From Oceanimonas smirnovii ATCC BAA-899 (GTDB lineage Bacteria > Pseudomonadota > Gammaproteobacteria > Enterobacterales > Aeromonadaceae): 64,000 nucleotides of DNA. A program made the position numbers and the translations under genes. The notes under the pieces are model-generated. The model was not told the DNA's origin. It worked only from the letters and a program-made list of their open reading frames with translations, and did not search any database. This document shows positions 7,587 through 63,295 of this stretch, in pieces (within the stretch, counting starts at the first letter, position 1; every line of letters begins with the position of its first letter). The DNA is taken from assembly GCF_000381965.1 (NCBI RefSeq), contig NZ_KB908461.1:62001-126000 (forward strand), given 5' to 3'.

Positions 7587-7596
7587 AAGGAAGATA

Positions 7597-7976
<380 letters not shown>

Positions 7977-46965: not shown

Positions 46966-47877
46966 GTGATCCAACTTCAACGCTGGCAACACTTGTTTCG
47001 CCATTCTCTGTCGCCACTGATACCACTTGAGCATACGACGCTGCAACAGCACAGGGTGGCGCTTTATATTAAACGGGATGACCTGCTGCACCCTTCCATA
47101 TCCGGCAATAAATGGCGAAAACTTAAATATGTGCTGCGCCAGGCGCTGTCGGAGCAGGCGGCCGGCCTGCTCAGCTTTGGCGGAGCCTGGTCCAATCACT
47201 TACATGCACTGGCTGCCGCCGGCCATACACTGGGAATGCCTACCGTCGGCATAGTACGTGGTGAGCCCGAATACGCCGCCAACCCCACCCTGTCCGATGC
47301 GCAAGGCTGGGGCATGCAGCTGGCGTTTGTAGACCGTCAAACCTATCGCCGCCGCCACCATGCTGATTTTCTTGCCGAACTGCGCCGCCGCTACCCCGGT
47401 TTTTATCTTATTCCTGAAGGCGGCAGCTGCGAGCTGGCCCTGCCTGGTGTGGCCGAGTTGTGGCAAGAGCTGCCAGCATGCGACCAGCTGATCCTGCCGG
47501 TGGCCAGCGGCGGTACCCTGGCGGGCTTGTTGTCAGCCCGCCCCGAACACACACACCTTACCGGCTATGCCGTACTCAAAGGCAAAGACTGGCTGGCCCG
47601 GACGGTGCAGCAGCTGTATGCCCCTGCTGAATCAGATAACGGCTGGCGGTTACGCCTGAATCATCATGGCGGTGGCTATGCCAAATGCTCCGTCGAAGAC
47701 CGCAGCGCCATTACGGCCCTGAGCACAGCATTGGGCATTCCGCTGGAGCCTATATACAGTGGCAAGGCCATGCTGGGGTTGTTTCGTGATATTGAGGCCG
47801 GCTGTTACCCGCCCGATAGCCGGCTGATATTTTTGCATACCGGTGGCCTGCAAAGTGCAAGGTCTCAAGTCAGCTGA
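46966..47877 (+). CDS. PLP-dependent ACC deaminase / D-cysteine desulfhydrase family protein
   Basis: This is a fold-type II PLP enzyme. The 303-residue product has the PLP-lysine stretch SGNKWRKLKYVLRQA, SFGGAWSNHLHALAAAG (Asn contacts the cofactor) and the phosphate-binding loop VASGGTLAGLL. It is shorter than characterised ACC deaminases and D-cysteine desulfhydrases (about 330 residues), so the substrate is unknown. It begins with GTG; the ribosome-binding site is poor. It is divergent from mreB and its 3' end overlaps csrD by 13 bases tail-to-tail. Confidence 0.85.
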   Translation: MIQLQRWQHLFRHSLSPLIPLEHTTLQQHRVALYIKRDDLLHPSISGNKWRKLKYVLRQALSEQAAGLLSFGGAWSNHLHALAAAGHTLGMPTVGIVRGEPEYAANPTLSDAQGWGMQLAFVDRQTYRRRHHADFLAELRRRYPGFYLIPEGGSCELALPGVAELWQELPACDQLILPVASGGTLAGLLSARPEHTHLTGYAVLKGKDWLARTVQQLYAPAESDNGWRLRLNHHGGGYAKCSVEDRSAITALSTALGIPLEPIYSGKAMLGLFRDIEAGCYPPDSRLIFLHTGGLQSARSQVS

Positions 47878-49778
47878 AAACGCTCAGGACAGGAAAAATA
47901 ATATCCCTGTCCGGCATGCACACCCAACTGCTTCAGGCAGGTCCACTCTGCTTCGGTTTCCACGCCCACCGCTATCACCCGGGTATGATTGCCCATGCAG
48001 TTACCCAACAAACTGCGCACCGCCATCTGATTCACCGATTTCTTGTCAATATCTCTGACCAGGCTGGGGTGCAGCTTGAGGTAATCGAGATCATAATCCT
48101 TGATGTACTGAGTGCTGACCACATCCTGGCCAACATGGTCCACCGCCAGCCGGCAGCCAAGCGCCTTCAGCGCCCGCAGTGGTTTTACCAGCTCCAGAAA
48201 GTGCCGGCCTACGCCCGCTTCAGACAGCTCAATGACCAGCTCATGAAGCAAAGGCCTGGGCAACTGGATCAGTTCAAACACCAGCCAGCGGTGAAAACTC
48301 CGGTTAAGGATACTGGCGACCGACAGGTTAACAGCCAGCACCGCCTTGCGGTCAGCGTCTTGTAGTGCCGTCAGGCTTTGCAACATAATGCAGCGATCCA
48401 GATCCTGCAGCAAACCACACTTCTCTGCCATGGGCAGAAAATGACCGGCAGCCAGCTCCCGCCCCTGCTCATCATGAATACGGGCAAGCAATTCAATGCT
48501 CTCGGGAGTGGCCTCTGCAGCGCTGTAAATACCCTGACGGTCCAGTAGTATGGCATCCTGCTCCAGCAGACGTCCAAGCAAAGTGCGCCATCGTACCGTA
48601 CCTTTGCCACTGCTTTCTTCGGTCAGCCCCTTATAGTACATAAAGTAGCCGTCACCACCCTGTAGGGCAGCGCTGCGTAACGCCAGCTCGGCCTCTTCTT
48701 CTATCTGATGTAACTGTTCGCCAAAGCGAAAACAAACACCGCCGATATAAACCGCCGGCTCTTTGACGACATCAGGCCAGTGCAGCCGACGCAGCAGTTT
48801 AAGCACCTGCCGGGCGGCCTCCTGGGCTTCGCTTTCTACCGTGTTGGGAAACATCAGTGCAAAGGTATTACCGGTATAGCGGGCCTGCAGGGCACCGGGA
48901 TAACGCCGGATCAGGTGTCCCAGATACACCGACGCCGAGCTGAGCAGCTCATCACCTCTGTCATGGCCCAGTTTATGGTTGATGTGCTCCAGATCCTGCA
49001 GCTCTACCAGCAATAATGCAGCTGATTGACTGGCTGAGTCATTCAGCGCCGCTTCCAGCCGGTTATCAAAAAACACCCGGTTGCCGATGCCAATATTGCG
49101 ATCAACAAACACATTGGCCCGAATAAAAGTGTCAAAGCGACTACGCTCCTTACGGGCTTCACGCAAGTCAGCCATCAGCTTATCCAGAGCGCGGCTGGCA
49201 GCCTGAGGCCACTCTTCTTTCGGGCTGTGTTGCAACATACTGAGCCGGCCGTCCAGGATCAGCCGGCCACGCTGCTCAAGCAGTTCGGCACCACGCAGCT
49301 GCCGGCGAAACCAGCGCAGACTAAGCAGCAGTCCGGCAAACACCAGCATAATGGCACCGGTCAGACCGGATACCGCAGCCAGAGAATGGTCTATATGGTA
49401 AAAAGGCGGGCGCAGGACCAGCCTGACAAAAAGCCCGTCATGACTGGTGAGTGCTCTGTCGTACTGCTCGCTGATTTCATCACTCGCCAGCGGCTGAGTC
49501 AGACCAGACCGGTAATACTCTTTATGCTGATCATGCACAGTAAAAACAATGAGTTCGTTCGTATCCAGCAGCGCCGGCAACCATCGATCAATATTGGGCT
49601 GAGCAGTACTCTCAGGCTGCCAGGATTCATCCACCATGCGTACCACTGCATCAACCTGACGCTGCTGATAGGCAATGCCCATCTGATAAAAGCTGAGCCC
49701 GGCACCAATCAACACCATCAGTACCGCCGCCAGCACGCACAGGGTGATGGTGGTAATAAACTGATTGGTAAACTTCAT
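47865..49778 (-). CDS. csrD: CsrD-like regulator with degenerate GGDEF and EAL domains
   Basis: In E. coli CsrD makes CsrB/CsrC RNAs susceptible to RNase E and so sets free CsrA levels. The 637-residue product has two N-terminal membrane segments (about 8-31 and 134-152) around a periplasmic sensor region, a HAMP-like linker, a degenerate GGDEF domain (about 215-375; the loop reads TGNTF) and a degenerate EAL domain (about 390-637; ELL in place of EAL). Both catalytic motifs are broken, as in CsrD. It lies beside mreB as in E. coli. A CsrB-type RNA is encoded at 61.8-62.1 kb. Confidence 0.9.
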   Translation of the reverse strand: MKFTNQFITTITLCVLAAVLMVLIGAGLSFYQMGIAYQQRQVDAVVRMVDESWQPESTAQPNIDRWLPALLDTNELIVFTVHDQHKEYYRSGLTQPLASDEISEQYDRALTSHDGLFVRLVLRPPFYHIDHSLAAVSGLTGAIMLVFAGLLLSLRWFRRQLRGAELLEQRGRLILDGRLSMLQHSPKEEWPQAASRALDKLMADLREARKERSRFDTFIRANVFVDRNIGIGNRVFFDNRLEAALNDSASQSAALLLVELQDLEHINHKLGHDRGDELLSSASVYLGHLIRRYPGALQARYTGNTFALMFPNTVESEAQEAARQVLKLLRRLHWPDVVKEPAVYIGGVCFRFGEQLHQIEEEAELALRSAALQGGDGYFMYYKGLTEESSGKGTVRWRTLLGRLLEQDAILLDRQGIYSAAEATPESIELLARIHDEQGRELAAGHFLPMAEKCGLLQDLDRCIMLQSLTALQDADRKAVLAVNLSVASILNRSFHRWLVFELIQLPRPLLHELVIELSEAGVGRHFLELVKPLRALKALGCRLAVDHVGQDVVSTQYIKDYDLDYLKLHPSLVRDIDKKSVNQMAVRSLLGNCMGNHTRVIAVGVETEAEWTCLKQLGVHAGQGYYFSCPERFQLT

Positions 49779-49913: not shown

Positions 49914-49924
49914 GAGGCGCTCCG

Positions 49925-50506
49925 TCAGAACGGAATATCGTCATCAAAGTCCATGGGCGGTTCATTGTATACCGGCTGACTTTGTGGTTTCTGCTGGGGC
50001 TGGCTTTGGGGCTGCTGCTGGGGCTGGCTGCCACCATATTGCGGCTGACCACCCTGCTGTCCGCTACCCTGCTGCTGGCCCCAGTTGCCCTGCGGCTGAC
50101 CACCGCCCTGCTGGCCCTGGTTCCAGCCACCCTGACTTTGCTGACCGCCGCCCTGCGGACGTCCGCCCAGCATCTGCATGGTACCGCCCATGTCCACTAC
50201 CACTTCGGTGGTATAGCGATCCTGGCCACCCTGATCCTGCCATTTTCGGGTTTGCAGCCGGCCTTCCACATACACCTGAGAGCCCTTGCGCAAATACTCA
50301 CCGGCAATTTCTGCCAGCTTGCCGAAAAATACTACCCGATGCCATTCGGTACGCTCACGTTGTTCGCCGCTCTGCTTGTCACGCCAGGTCTCACTGGTGG
50401 CCAGAGTAATATTGGCGACGGCATTGCCGTTAGGCATATAGCGCACTTCGGGATCCTGACCAAGATGCCCGATCAGGATGACTTTGTTGATGCCTCTATT
50501 GGCCAT
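49925..50506 (-). CDS. ssb: Single-stranded DNA-binding protein
   Basis: SSB coats single-stranded DNA and recruits repair and replication partners. The start [16 protein letters not shown] (194 residues) has GGAG upstream; an in-frame GTG at 50524 overlaps yajR. The OB fold covers about 1-110 ([33 protein letters not shown]). A long Gln/Gly-rich disordered linker (about 120-180) ends in the protein-binding tip DFDDDIPF. It follows yajR by 14 bases and is likely co-transcribed with it. Confidence 0.97.
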
Positions 50507-61150: not shown

Positions 61151-61606
61151 ATGATATATACCGTTTTGCCCAGCCCCTGTGGTCCATTGCGTATTGAAGC
61201 CAATGACGAGGCCATCACCCGCATTCTTTTTCTCGATAAGCCATTAGCGGCCACTGCTCCGGCCAGCCCTTTGCTGGCACAAACCTGTGATCAGCTGAAT
61301 GCCTATTTTGCCGGCGAGCTCATCCGTTTTTCGCTGCCACTGGCCCCTGCCGGCACACCTTTTCAGCAGCAAGTATGGCAAGCGCTGTTAACCATTCCCT
61401 GGGGTGAAAAACGCAGTTACCGCGATATTGCTGCTGCCATCGGCAATCCCAGGGCCGTGCGGGCCGTCGGTGCCGCCAATGGCCGCAACCCCATTCCCAT
61501 TATCATTCCCTGCCACAGAGTGATTGGTGCCAATAGCCGCCTGACCGGTTATGCCGGCGGACTGGAACGCAAGCGCTGGCTGCTGGATCATGAGACCAAA
61601 GTCTGA
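61151..61606 (+). CDS. ogt: Methylated-DNA--protein-cysteine methyltransferase (Ogt type)
   Basis: This suicide repair enzyme takes the methyl group from O6-methylguanine onto a cysteine. The 151-residue product has the active-site Cys121 in IPCHRVIG, the arginine finger/HTH region YRDIAAAIGNPRAVRAVG in part, and AANGRNPIPI. The N-terminal Ada metal-binding domain is absent, so it is the constitutive Ogt type. It is probably co-transcribed with the Nif3-domain gene. Confidence 0.94.
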   Translation: MIYTVLPSPCGPLRIEANDEAITRILFLDKPLAATAPASPLLAQTCDQLNAYFAGELIRFSLPLAPAGTPFQQQVWQALLTIPWGEKRSYRDIAAAIGNPRAVRAVGAANGRNPIPIIIPCHRVIGANSRLTGYAGGLERKRWLLDHETKV

Positions 61607-61623
61607 CAATACCCCCGCCACCT

Positions 61624-61641
61624 TGTGCGAGATCTCTCAAG
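61624..61641. promoter_or_regulatory. Putative UvrY/GacA-type binding palindrome
   Basis: TGTGCGAGATCTCTCAAG closely resembles the 18-bp site I recall for UvrY upstream of E. coli csrB (TGTGAGAGATCTCTTACA), 14 of 18 matching. It is centred about 170 bp before the predicted start of the CsrB-type RNA. An AT-rich tract (61682-61713), which might bind IHF, lies between. Confidence 0.65.
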
Positions 61642-61737
61642 CTGACTTCAGACAACACGCTTTTGTGATGGGGTCATAGGCCTTATAAAATACATTTTTA
61701 CTTTTATATTCAGTCAGATGCCATTTATTGACCATTC

Positions 61738-61753
61738 CTGACATTTTGGTCAG
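61738..61753. promoter_or_regulatory. Inverted repeat upstream of the CsrB-type RNA
   Basis: CTGAC-ATTTTG-GTCAG is a perfect 5-bp inverted repeat centred about 57 bp before the predicted RNA start. It could be a regulator site, but I know no factor for it. Confidence 0.3.
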
Positions 61754-61766
61754 CATGAAAACCGGA

Positions 61767-61795
61767 CTTTCCGTATTACCACTTCGGGTTACTAT
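61767..61795 (+). promoter_or_regulatory. Predicted promoter of the CsrB-type RNA
   Basis: TACTAT (61790-61795) is preceded at 17 bp by the poor -35 CTTTCC (TTTCCG at 16 bp). A weak -35 fits activator-dependent transcription. The start is expected near 61802. Confidence 0.5.
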
Positions 61796-61801
61796 TCTTC
61801 T

Positions 61802-62078
61802 CGCAAGGAAGCAAGGGGTCTTTCAGGAAGAAAGACTCGCCAGGAATGGCACAGGGACACCGCTGGTGAAAGGCGGACAGGACACTTTCAGGGTTGAAGA
61901 TGTGAAGCGGGTCAGGATGACACGCGGTCAGGAGCGACCAGGGACACACCGACGGAACGGGAAGCGGATAATTTCACGGAGTGAAATACAGTCAGGGATA
62001 TGGCAGGGAGCCATCAGGTTCACGGAACAGAGCCGTCAGGACGACCGAAAAAGGGCAACAGCAATGTTGCCCTTTTTT
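61802..62078 (+). ncRNA. csrB: CsrB/CsrC-family CsrA-sequestering small RNA
   Basis: This family titrates the translational repressor CsrA. About 277 nt carry 17 GGA triplets, 11 of them as AGGA or AGGGA. At least seven short hairpins put GGA in the loop, for example 61818-61836 (GTCTTTC stem, AGGAA loop), 61971-61987 (ATTTCAC stem, GGA loop), 62000-62014 (ATGGC stem, AGGGA loop), and GTC-AGGAY-GAC at 61911 and 62035. The RNA ends at a strong terminator. No convincing protein is encoded: the open frame across it matches nothing I recognise. A UvrY-type palindrome lies upstream and csrD is in the same window. The 5' end is an estimate; csrB versus csrC cannot be told. Confidence 0.88.
62048..62078 (+). 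terminator. Terminator of the CsrB-type RNA
   Basis: AAAAAGGGCAACA and TGTTGCCCTTTTT form a perfect 13-bp stem with a GCAA loop, followed by T. On the minus strand it could also end the carboxypeptidase transcript, which stops 30 bases away. Confidence 0.93.
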
Positions 62079-62107
62079 CGTATTTACGCACTACGCCTGA
62101 TGCGGAC

Positions 62108-63295
62108 TCAGAGCCGTACTACCAGACAATCCATCCCTTGCCGGGACAGGTGCTGACAGGCATTCTGTGCCTGCTTTTCTTCAAAACCTATCAGGCGGGC
62201 ACGAAACAGGGTCCGGTTGCTGATTTCCACTTCAGTAACAGCCGCCCTGGCCTGCGCCAGATCACCCAGCCGGCGTGCAGCATCCGAGGCTCTGTCTCTG
62301 GCCTGCTCCGGCATACGGAAAGAGCCAATTTGTACTGCCCAGTCCCCATGAAATAAAGGAGCAGCCGCCGGGACTTGAGGTGGCTGAGAATTCGGCGCTT
62401 GTTTTACTGTCTGGCGCACAGTGCGCGTACGAACGACCAGTCGATCGGCAGCAGGCACCTGCGTTACCCTGGCAACCTGAGTAGCACGCCCTATGCTGCG
62501 GTCAATCAGTGAAGCCATATGCTGATCCCGGGACTGAGCGGTTTTACCCCCCATCACCACACCTACCACACGGCGATCATCCCGCAATGCCGACGTCGCC
62601 ACATTAAAGCCGGACGCACGAATATAACCGGTCTTCATGCCATCCACCCCGGGCGCATTCTGCACCATGCGATTATGGCTATGGTAGGTTTTGCCCTTAT
62701 AGGTAAAGGACGTGGTGGAAAAATAATGATAATAGCCCGGGTAATCCTTCATCAGCCGCAACGACAGGGTAGCCAAATCCCGGGCAGTGGAAATTTGCTG
62801 GCTGTCGGGCAGGCCCGAGGCATTACGAAAGGTGGTATTGTACATTTTCAGCTCTCTGGCCTTGGCCGTCATACGTTTGGCAAAGGCGCTCTCGCTCCCC
62901 CCCAGGGCCTCGGCCACCACCACAGCCACGTCATTGGCCGAGCGTACTATCAACGCCGGAATGGCATCTTTTACTTTCAGTCTGTCGCCTTTTTTGAGCT
63001 GAATATTGGTTTGTGGCATGGAAGCCGCATGTGCCGACACCGGCATTGCAGTATTCAGGCTCATGCGTCCCTGCTCCATGGCATCAAACAACAGGTAGAG
63101 GGTCATCATTTTAGTGAGTGACGCCGGATAGCGGCTGGCATCAGCATTAGCCGCATGCAGTACTGTGCCGTTTTCGGCGTCGATCACGATGGCCGCATAA
63201 CGTGGATTGGCGTGAGCCTGAGTCGTCAGACAAACCAGCAGCAAAAAACCAAGTAATTGTGAGATAGTTTTTCCCGGGCGGGATACAGTAAACAT
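62108..63295 (-). CDS. Serine-type D-Ala-D-Ala carboxypeptidase with C-terminal SPOR domain
   Basis: This is a low-molecular-weight penicillin-binding protein that trims pentapeptide stems. The 395-residue product has a signal peptide cleaved after AHA (about 29), SxxK at S59-LTK-62, SAN at 119-121 and KTG at 221-223. In place of the beta-rich C-terminal domain and amphipathic anchor of PBP5, a Gln/Pro/Arg-rich linker leads to a SPOR domain (about 318-392, DWAVQIGSFRMPEQA to CLVVRL), which usually binds denuded septal glycan. AGGAGG precedes the ATG. A septal role is inferred. Confidence 0.93.
   Translation of the reverse strand: MFTVSRPGKTISQLLGFLLLVCLTTQAHANPRYAAIVIDAENGTVLHAANADASRYPASLTKMMTLYLLFDAMEQGRMSLNTAMPVSAHAASMPQTNIQLKKGDRLKVKDAIPALIVRSANDVAVVVAEALGGSESAFAKRMTAKARELKMYNTTFRNASGLPDSQQISTARDLATLSLRLMKDYPGYYHYFSTTSFTYKGKTYHSHNRMVQNAPGVDGMKTGYIRASGFNVATSALRDDRRVVGVVMGGKTAQSRDQHMASLIDRSIGRATQVARVTQVPAADRLVVRTRTVRQTVKQAPNSQPPQVPAAAPLFHGDWAVQIGSFRMPEQARDRASDAARRLGDLAQARAAVTEVEISNRTLFRARLIGFEEKQAQNACQHLSRQGMDCLVVRL

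Follow-up and report, generated by a model that had tools for sequence, protein, structure and literature searches.

The gap between ogt and a carboxypeptidase gene in Oceanimonas smirnovii very probably encodes a CsrB-type small RNA, one of three full-length CsrB matches in the genome

The Csr systems of E. coli and of Vibrio provide a framework for understanding the locus presented here. CsrD of E. coli is a decay factor for CsrB and CsrC, and RsmY and RsmZ belong to the same Rfam clan as CsrB. The E. coli csrB gene carries an upstream box, TGTGAGAGATCTCTTACA, centred at -183/-182, and needs IHF, as described in the accessible portion of PMC4682653. CsrB copies of Vibrio were found to be mostly redundant according to the available part of PMC6262261, and the three CsrB RNAs of V. 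cholerae are called nonredundant in the title of PMC6550530. Our analysis of a 64,000-nucleotide stretch of Oceanimonas smirnovii DNA (the window) indicates that the gap between ogt and a convergent carboxypeptidase gene very probably holds a CsrB-type small RNA gene. A preliminary description had placed a CsrB-type RNA in this apparently empty gap, and its proposal is borne out by a match to the Rfam CsrB model, by covariation among relatives, by an upstream box and by the loss of the overlapping reading frame in those relatives. The locus is organised as follows.

61151..61606, plus strand: ogt, methylated-DNA-cysteine methyltransferase (Pfam PF01035 and PF02870; synteny), the upstream neighbour
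61624..61641, no strand assigned: predicted box, an inverted repeat of 18 bp and of UvrY/GacA type, TGTGCGAGATCTCTCAAG, with its centre about 170 bp from the predicted start on the upstream side
61768..61773, plus strand: predicted -35, TTTCCG, from the upstream alignment; TTGAG[CA] in 14 of 15 relatives and poorer here
61790..61795, plus strand: predicted -10, TACTAT, from the upstream alignment; TATTAT in 12 of 15 relatives and TACTAT in 3 of 15
61802..62078, plus strand: predicted CsrB-type small RNA of about 277 nt with 17 GGA (RF00018 match, GGA and hairpins, fold, covariation), its 5' end placed from the -10
62108..63295, minus strand: D-alanyl-D-alanine carboxypeptidase with a SPOR domain (Pfam PF00768 and PF05036; synteny), the convergent downstream neighbour

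A covariance search with the Rfam models, a check that the preliminary description had proposed, matched the CsrB model (RF00018) over its full length, with positions 1-356 of 356 aligned to 61778-62083 on the plus strand at 46.6 bits and an E value of 1.5e-11 when 601 bases were searched (1.9e-11 when the whole genome was searched). The search was permissive and the score lies below the curated Rfam cut-off of 71 bits, which we take as a curation threshold rather than a biological feature, so that a default Rfam scan misses the ogt-side copy. With Rfam's own cut-offs nothing was called at the small RNA locus, and the sole match in the 64-kb window was an ordinary class A RNase P RNA (7594-7976, minus strand, 328.8 bits). 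Across the whole genome there are three full-length CsrB matches, at 84.1 bits (C5), 46.6 bits (the ogt-side copy) and 25.8 bits (C13); two more, listed when E values up to 10 are allowed, are fragments of 32 nt (E 0.05) and 21 nt (E 0.66). Default scanning overlooks this gene, and with two of the three copies below the cut-off it would under-count the Csr output of such a genome. In the permissive search 8 of 14 control genomes matched CsrB, E. coli alone above the cut-off, and at an E value of 0.01 E. coli alone matched; among the window's genome and 40 relatives, 34 of 41 have a CsrB match at 0.01 or better. Rescanning of the ogt-side loci in relatives gave matches at 0.001 or better in 12 of 12, half of which (6/12) reach the cut-off. 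The copy of relative G004 attains 71 bits and is 84% identical to the window DNA (blastn E 3.6e-84), and this homology to a copy that passes the cut-off, together with covariation in the shared alignment, joins the ogt-side copy to the CsrB family. The preliminary description had spoken more broadly of the architecture of CsrB, CsrC and RsmZ RNAs. CsrB-type is the part of that assignment that held, and CsrC (RF00084) was rejected, as it matched just model positions 200-244 of 255, on the minus strand, at 12.5 bits. CsrB was kept as the best match in a clan table that does not contain RsmY and RsmZ and in which four lower-scoring overlapping clan matches are unnamed.

The interval 61802-62078 contains exactly 17 GGA triplets, all of them before 62047, and among 245-nt stretches of the window, both strands considered, the highest GGA count is that of 61802-62046 (17; best on the minus strand, 11). 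By itself this count is just moderately unusual because the region is G-rich: dinucleotide-preserving shuffles of 61802-62046 average 11.8, and 29 of 2000 are as high. The extended motifs are more discriminating in part, with ANGGA occurring 8 times (36 of 2000 shuffles as high), CAGGA 6 times and TCAGG 7 times (0 of 2000 shuffles reach either of the last two). CAGG[GA] density alone does not discriminate, as there are 11 occurrences at the small RNA and 10 at 49996-50295 on the minus strand, where the DNA looks coding. The coding-looking stretch there, at 49923-50400 on the minus strand upstream of csrD, is CAGGG-rich and has a Gln/Gly-rich tail with DFDDDIPF; we take it from this tail to resemble a single-strand DNA-binding protein, and its near equality with the small RNA in CAGG[GA] density is a useful caution. 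The predicted fold of the whole RNA is far more stable than that of shuffles (-92.2 versus a mean of -71.1 kcal/mol, z -4.8, reached in 0 of 200). The structural claims of the preliminary description survived recounting and folding: 17 GGA in about 245 nt agrees with the exact count, the 13-bp-stem terminator is present in sequence and fold, and all seven of its proposed intervals (7/7) fold as hairpins and contain GGA, two of them being weak alone. The hairpins and the terminator are listed here with helix numbers of the consensus structure of 16 sequences.

61818..61836, plus strand: hairpin with a GGA loop (GTCTTTCAGGAAGAAAGAC), part of consensus helix 2, in which 4 of 7 pairs have changed on both sides
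61839..61850, plus strand: hairpin with a GGA loop, consensus helix 3, whose 3 pairs are invariant
61911..61921, plus strand: hairpin with a GGA loop, weak alone (-0.8 kcal/mol), helix 6, 2 of 5 pairs changed on both sides
61926..61939, plus strand: hairpin with a GGA loop predicted for this genome, where the consensus has another pairing (helix 7)
61971..61987, plus strand: covarying hairpin with a GGA loop, helix 9, 5 of 6 pairs changed on both sides and 88.5% of cells paired
62000..62014, plus strand: hairpin with a GGA loop, ATGGC AGGGA GCCAT here and ATTGC AGGGA GCAA[TA] in most of the distant relatives
62035..62045, plus strand: weak hairpin with a GGA loop (-0.4 kcal/mol alone); the GGA is missing in 9 of 16 genomes
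62048..62078, plus strand: intrinsic terminator seen in sequence and fold, with a 13-bp stem (62048-62060 paired with 62065-62077, then T), a GCAA loop and a T run; helix 12, 5 of 14 pairs changed on both sides

A pattern scan listed neither this terminator nor the proposed promoter. DNA matches to 61610-62100 occur in 18 of 41 genomes (its own included), all of the same genus, and many of the matching rows are other CsrB copies. Copies adjoining the same carboxypeptidase gene are found in 15 same-genus genomes, with RNA identities of 64.9-87.6% and 15-20 GGA each. The other flank is ogt in 14 of these 15 relatives, and in the remaining one (G018) just the gene before ogt was found. The stretch that joins the matches to ogt and to the carboxypeptidase measures 483-579 bp in 11 of the 14; in the other three, G001, G019 and G021, it measures 841-1099 bp. 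A DNA search of plasmids with the small RNA locus gave no match.

The consensus structure built from the 16 sequences has 63 pairs with 97.2% of cells paired, and compensation affects 23 of the 63 pairs and 81 cells, values of which none is reached in 500 shuffles. Slid controls gave 31.0-44.9% of cells paired and 3-7 compensated pairs, a comparison that favours the consensus because it was derived from the same alignment that was tested. Of the five covariation measures, one (further pair types) stayed within the range of shuffles (487 of 500 as high). In alignment A1 the G002 row is without its 5' third and several rows start with promoter bases. Compensated changes are found in the hairpins at 61818-61836, 61911-61921 and 61971-61987 and in the terminator. 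Helix 3 (61839-61850) gives no covariation evidence because its pairs are invariant, and the hairpin at 62000-62014, which is absent from the consensus, has 92.5% of 80 cells paired when counted separately, and one of its pairs shows compensation in 7 of 16 genomes.

These same changes in relatives bear on a coding interpretation of the gap. The preliminary description had warned that a false 142-residue protein could be called here, and the frame does exist, running from a TTG start through 142 open codons at 61728-62156; 2 of 15 relatives (G016 and G019) likewise have some frame without a stop over the aligned stretch. In the other 13 of 15, all three frames contain stops there. The length of the aligned stretch departs from the window's by other than a multiple of three in 13 of 15, and the stem changes compensate. 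No Pfam match to the frame was found at an E value of 0.001. Conserved coding potential, which that description had named as one finding that would overturn its reading, was looked for in these relatives, and the frame is not conserved. We rejected the protein interpretation on the interrupted frames and the empty Pfam search, and give a protein-coding gene at this position next to no chance.

The region upstream of the RNA provides an independent view of the locus. Searching with TGTGNGAGATCTCTNACA at up to 3 mismatches, the box is the single site of the window, listed once per strand with 2 mismatches on the plus strand; shuffles average 0.27 matches, and 7 of 100 have at least 2. Its core, GAGATCTCT, is present in 16 of 16 aligned genomes, and the box is similar to that of E. 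coli csrB. The pattern TGTRNGNGATCTCTYA occurs three times in this genome, and each occurrence precedes a same-strand CsrB match by 138-153 bp. Over 26 genomes the pattern was found 42 times. For 36 of these sites a CsrB match lies downstream on the same strand at no more than 290 bp, and the 6 unpaired ones (one palindromic site being counted on both strands) lie in the order relatives G026, G027 and G031, genomes without a CsrB match at an E value of 0.01 or better; the reversed pattern gave 0 matches in the 26 genomes. Within the 16 same-genus genomes all 35 boxes precede a CsrB match. Exactly three boxes are present in 11 of the 16, and all 33 CsrB matches of those 11 have one; 5 of 40 CsrB matches in these 16 are without a box (G005, G014 and G012 once each, G011 twice), as are the CsrB matches of G025, G028, G029 and G034 outside the genus. 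The box pattern is thus a specific handle, and it leads as well to two GGA-rich stretches of G027 without an Rfam match at an E value of 0.01.

The conserved -10 and box, the covarying terminator and the unconserved frame are the sequence evidence for a stand-alone non-coding gene. The position of the RNA downstream of ogt and on the same strand, with a terminator that would stop ogt readthrough too, would also suit a GGA-rich untranslated tail of the ogt message, or an antisense to the carboxypeptidase message, with no independent RNA. We consider this very improbable, as ogt is separated from the RNA by a conserved box and -10 and the other two copies stand in different gene contexts behind the same type of box.

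Transcription from this promoter may have diverged from that of its relatives. The IHF consensus is WATCAANNNNTTR, and an exact site of this kind is present in 7 of 15 relatives and absent from the window copy; as it is exact in 7 of 16 genomes with the window not among them, we do not claim an IHF-like site here. With its poorer -35 and this missing site, expression of the ogt-side copy may be weak or differently controlled. The same two features would be expected if a formerly working CsrB were losing its promoter here and the other two copies did the work, and 5 of 16 same-genus genomes have fewer than three boxes (one of these, G009, is 84% complete), which indicates that copies or boxes can be lost. 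Such decay nevertheless appears unlikely to us: the box, the -10, the 17 GGA and the terminator are intact, the fold is strongly stabilised, and the IHF-like site is inexact in 8 of 15 relatives too.

A CsrB-type gene is also consistent with the Csr homologues encoded in this genome, which include one CsrA match, a UvrY homologue (74% identity) and a BarA homologue (47% identity), together with a more distant part of the same circuit in the window itself.

47865..49778, minus strand: CsrD homologue with EAL, GGDEF and GAPES4 domains, 35% identical to E. coli K-12 CsrD and the best of 27 genome matches (34% over 638 columns by BLASTP)

By analogy with Csr circuits already described, UvrY would be phosphorylated by the sensor kinase BarA and would bind the upstream box and activate transcription. 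The RNA of about 277 nt would then display its many GGA sites and bind several CsrA dimers, and this titration would free CsrA-controlled messages, with CsrD speeding decay of the small RNA. The three CsrB copies would be siblings that share this job, wholly or partly. Together, the covariance match, the compensatory changes, the box, the -10, the terminator, the Csr homologues and the unconserved overlapping frame converge on the CsrB reading. We are highly confident in assigning the locus to the CsrB family, as one of three such small RNA genes that the genome carries, whose product, from its sequence features, would be a BarA-UvrY-activated decoy of CsrA; both its transcription and its binding of CsrA are what we infer.

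The relationship among the copies is only partly ordered by gene context. A FastTree tree of 41 copies has a tendency to cluster by context that is unclean, and one deep node has a support of 0.25. The rsmD/sseA copies form one group and the ogt copies are split among several, and the third context of the tree, thrC, is represented by the copy of this genome alone. The ogt copy of G021 falls with the sseA copies: in that genome the ogt-side and sseA-side copies (L043/L011, G021:C1, and L053, G021:C2) cluster together, against gene context, and look as if they had been recently duplicated or homogenised.

In other genomes CsrB genes appear to be expanded. In G025, of another genus in the same order, a CsrB RNA (L146:725-1278, G025:C1) contains a 52-nt tandem repeat of 10.8 copies at 98% match, and the 760 nt around the repeat have 55 GGA and nowhere five T in succession. 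A 289-base query from this RNA matches 11 of 11 genomes of that genus, in arrays (L167-L191) with units of 50-52 nt. Where a recognised 3' module follows, the arrays comprise about 3 to 13 units, some as tandem genes, with the unit numbers obtained by word count and the repeat numbers resting on the assemblies: 13 in G048, 11 in G025, 10 in G042, 9 in G050 and 3 in G046, and two such arrays each in G049 (6 and 7 units) and G047 (9 and 5, the latter near a contig end). Further arrays, of 3 units in G046 and of 2 to 10 in G043, are either cut or not followed by a 3' module that could be recognised; in G041, G044 and G045, 1 to 3 units are seen where a contig ends. For a protein-sponge RNA to contain a variable-number repeat looks unusual, and it is here, outside the window, that the surprise lies; a literature search, judged by titles and the openings of abstracts, found no repeat-expanded CsrB.

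Expansion takes other forms elsewhere. In G023, of the same family, a CsrB-like stretch of about 725 nt (L149:596-1320, minus strand, G023:C1) has 50 GGA, a 99-nt repeat of 3.6 copies and one terminator-like hairpin found, at its end. In G033 five tandem CsrB matches follow one another at intervals of about 700 bp, all of them above the Rfam cut-off (L148:1307-4440, minus strand, G033:C1), with the UvrY box pattern before the first and the half-like TGTGAGAGATC before the other four. The order relative G027 has two short stretches (L162:850-985 and 1195-1345, G027:C26) with 7 and 6 GGA. Both are preceded by a UvrY box and finish in a strong hairpin, which in the second has no clear T run after it; neither has an Rfam match at an E value of 0.01, in a genome without a CsrB match at 0.01 or better, and they are possible Csr RNAs invisible to Rfam. 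In G031, likewise without a CsrB match at that level, the DNA after a UvrY box is richer in GGA, with up to 8 in 200 nt (L163, minus strand, reverse positions about 1250-1550, G031:C2).

Taken as a whole, these genomes tentatively suggest, as a possibility we hold less likely than its negation, that CsrB decoys in this part of the gammaproteobacteria are a modular and quickly re-tuned sponge, in which the number of genes and of GGA repeats within a gene varies between species and sponge capacity itself is the evolving trait. Under such a scheme this genus would use three siblings, of which the ogt-side copy, with its poorer -35 and no IHF-like site, may have changed input, and another genus would use a single RNA in which a 50-52-nt unit recurs in tandem about 3 to 13 times. 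Literature searches found nothing on CsrB in Oceanimonas, an absence that says little, and nothing on CsrB in Moritella.

In comparison with the described systems, the ogt-side locus shares with E. coli CsrB (RF00018) a full-length covariance match, GGA loops, a terminator and a UvrY box about 170-180 bp upstream. It differs in length (about 277 nt, against an annotated 369 nt for csrB), in its 17 GGA (22 in E. coli CsrB, as given in the available part of PMC11882849), in its position in the ogt/carboxypeptidase gap rather than between syd and yqcC, and in a score under the Rfam cut-off of the family model. CsrC (RF00084) belongs to the same Rfam clan and, unlike CsrB, has no full-length match here, its partial match lying on the opposite strand. 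CsrB, CsrC and CsrD of Vibrio cholerae and csrB1-4 of V. tasmaniensis likewise comprise several CsrB-type genes in separate conserved contexts, as far as the accessible text of PMC6262261 describes them; redundancy has been addressed there, and the three copies here are predicted from sequence. Pseudoalteromonas fuliginea Pf1, Pf2 and Pf3 offer a further parallel, being three GGA-rich, CsrA-binding intergenic RNAs with promoter and terminator; for Pf2 and Pf3, promoter activity and CsrA binding come from experiment in the portion of PMC11882849 consulted, and the likeness drawn here is one of description. The CsrB-type small RNA near ogt is, in this company, very probably a real gene of an already familiar kind, since several CsrB siblings per genome are known elsewhere.
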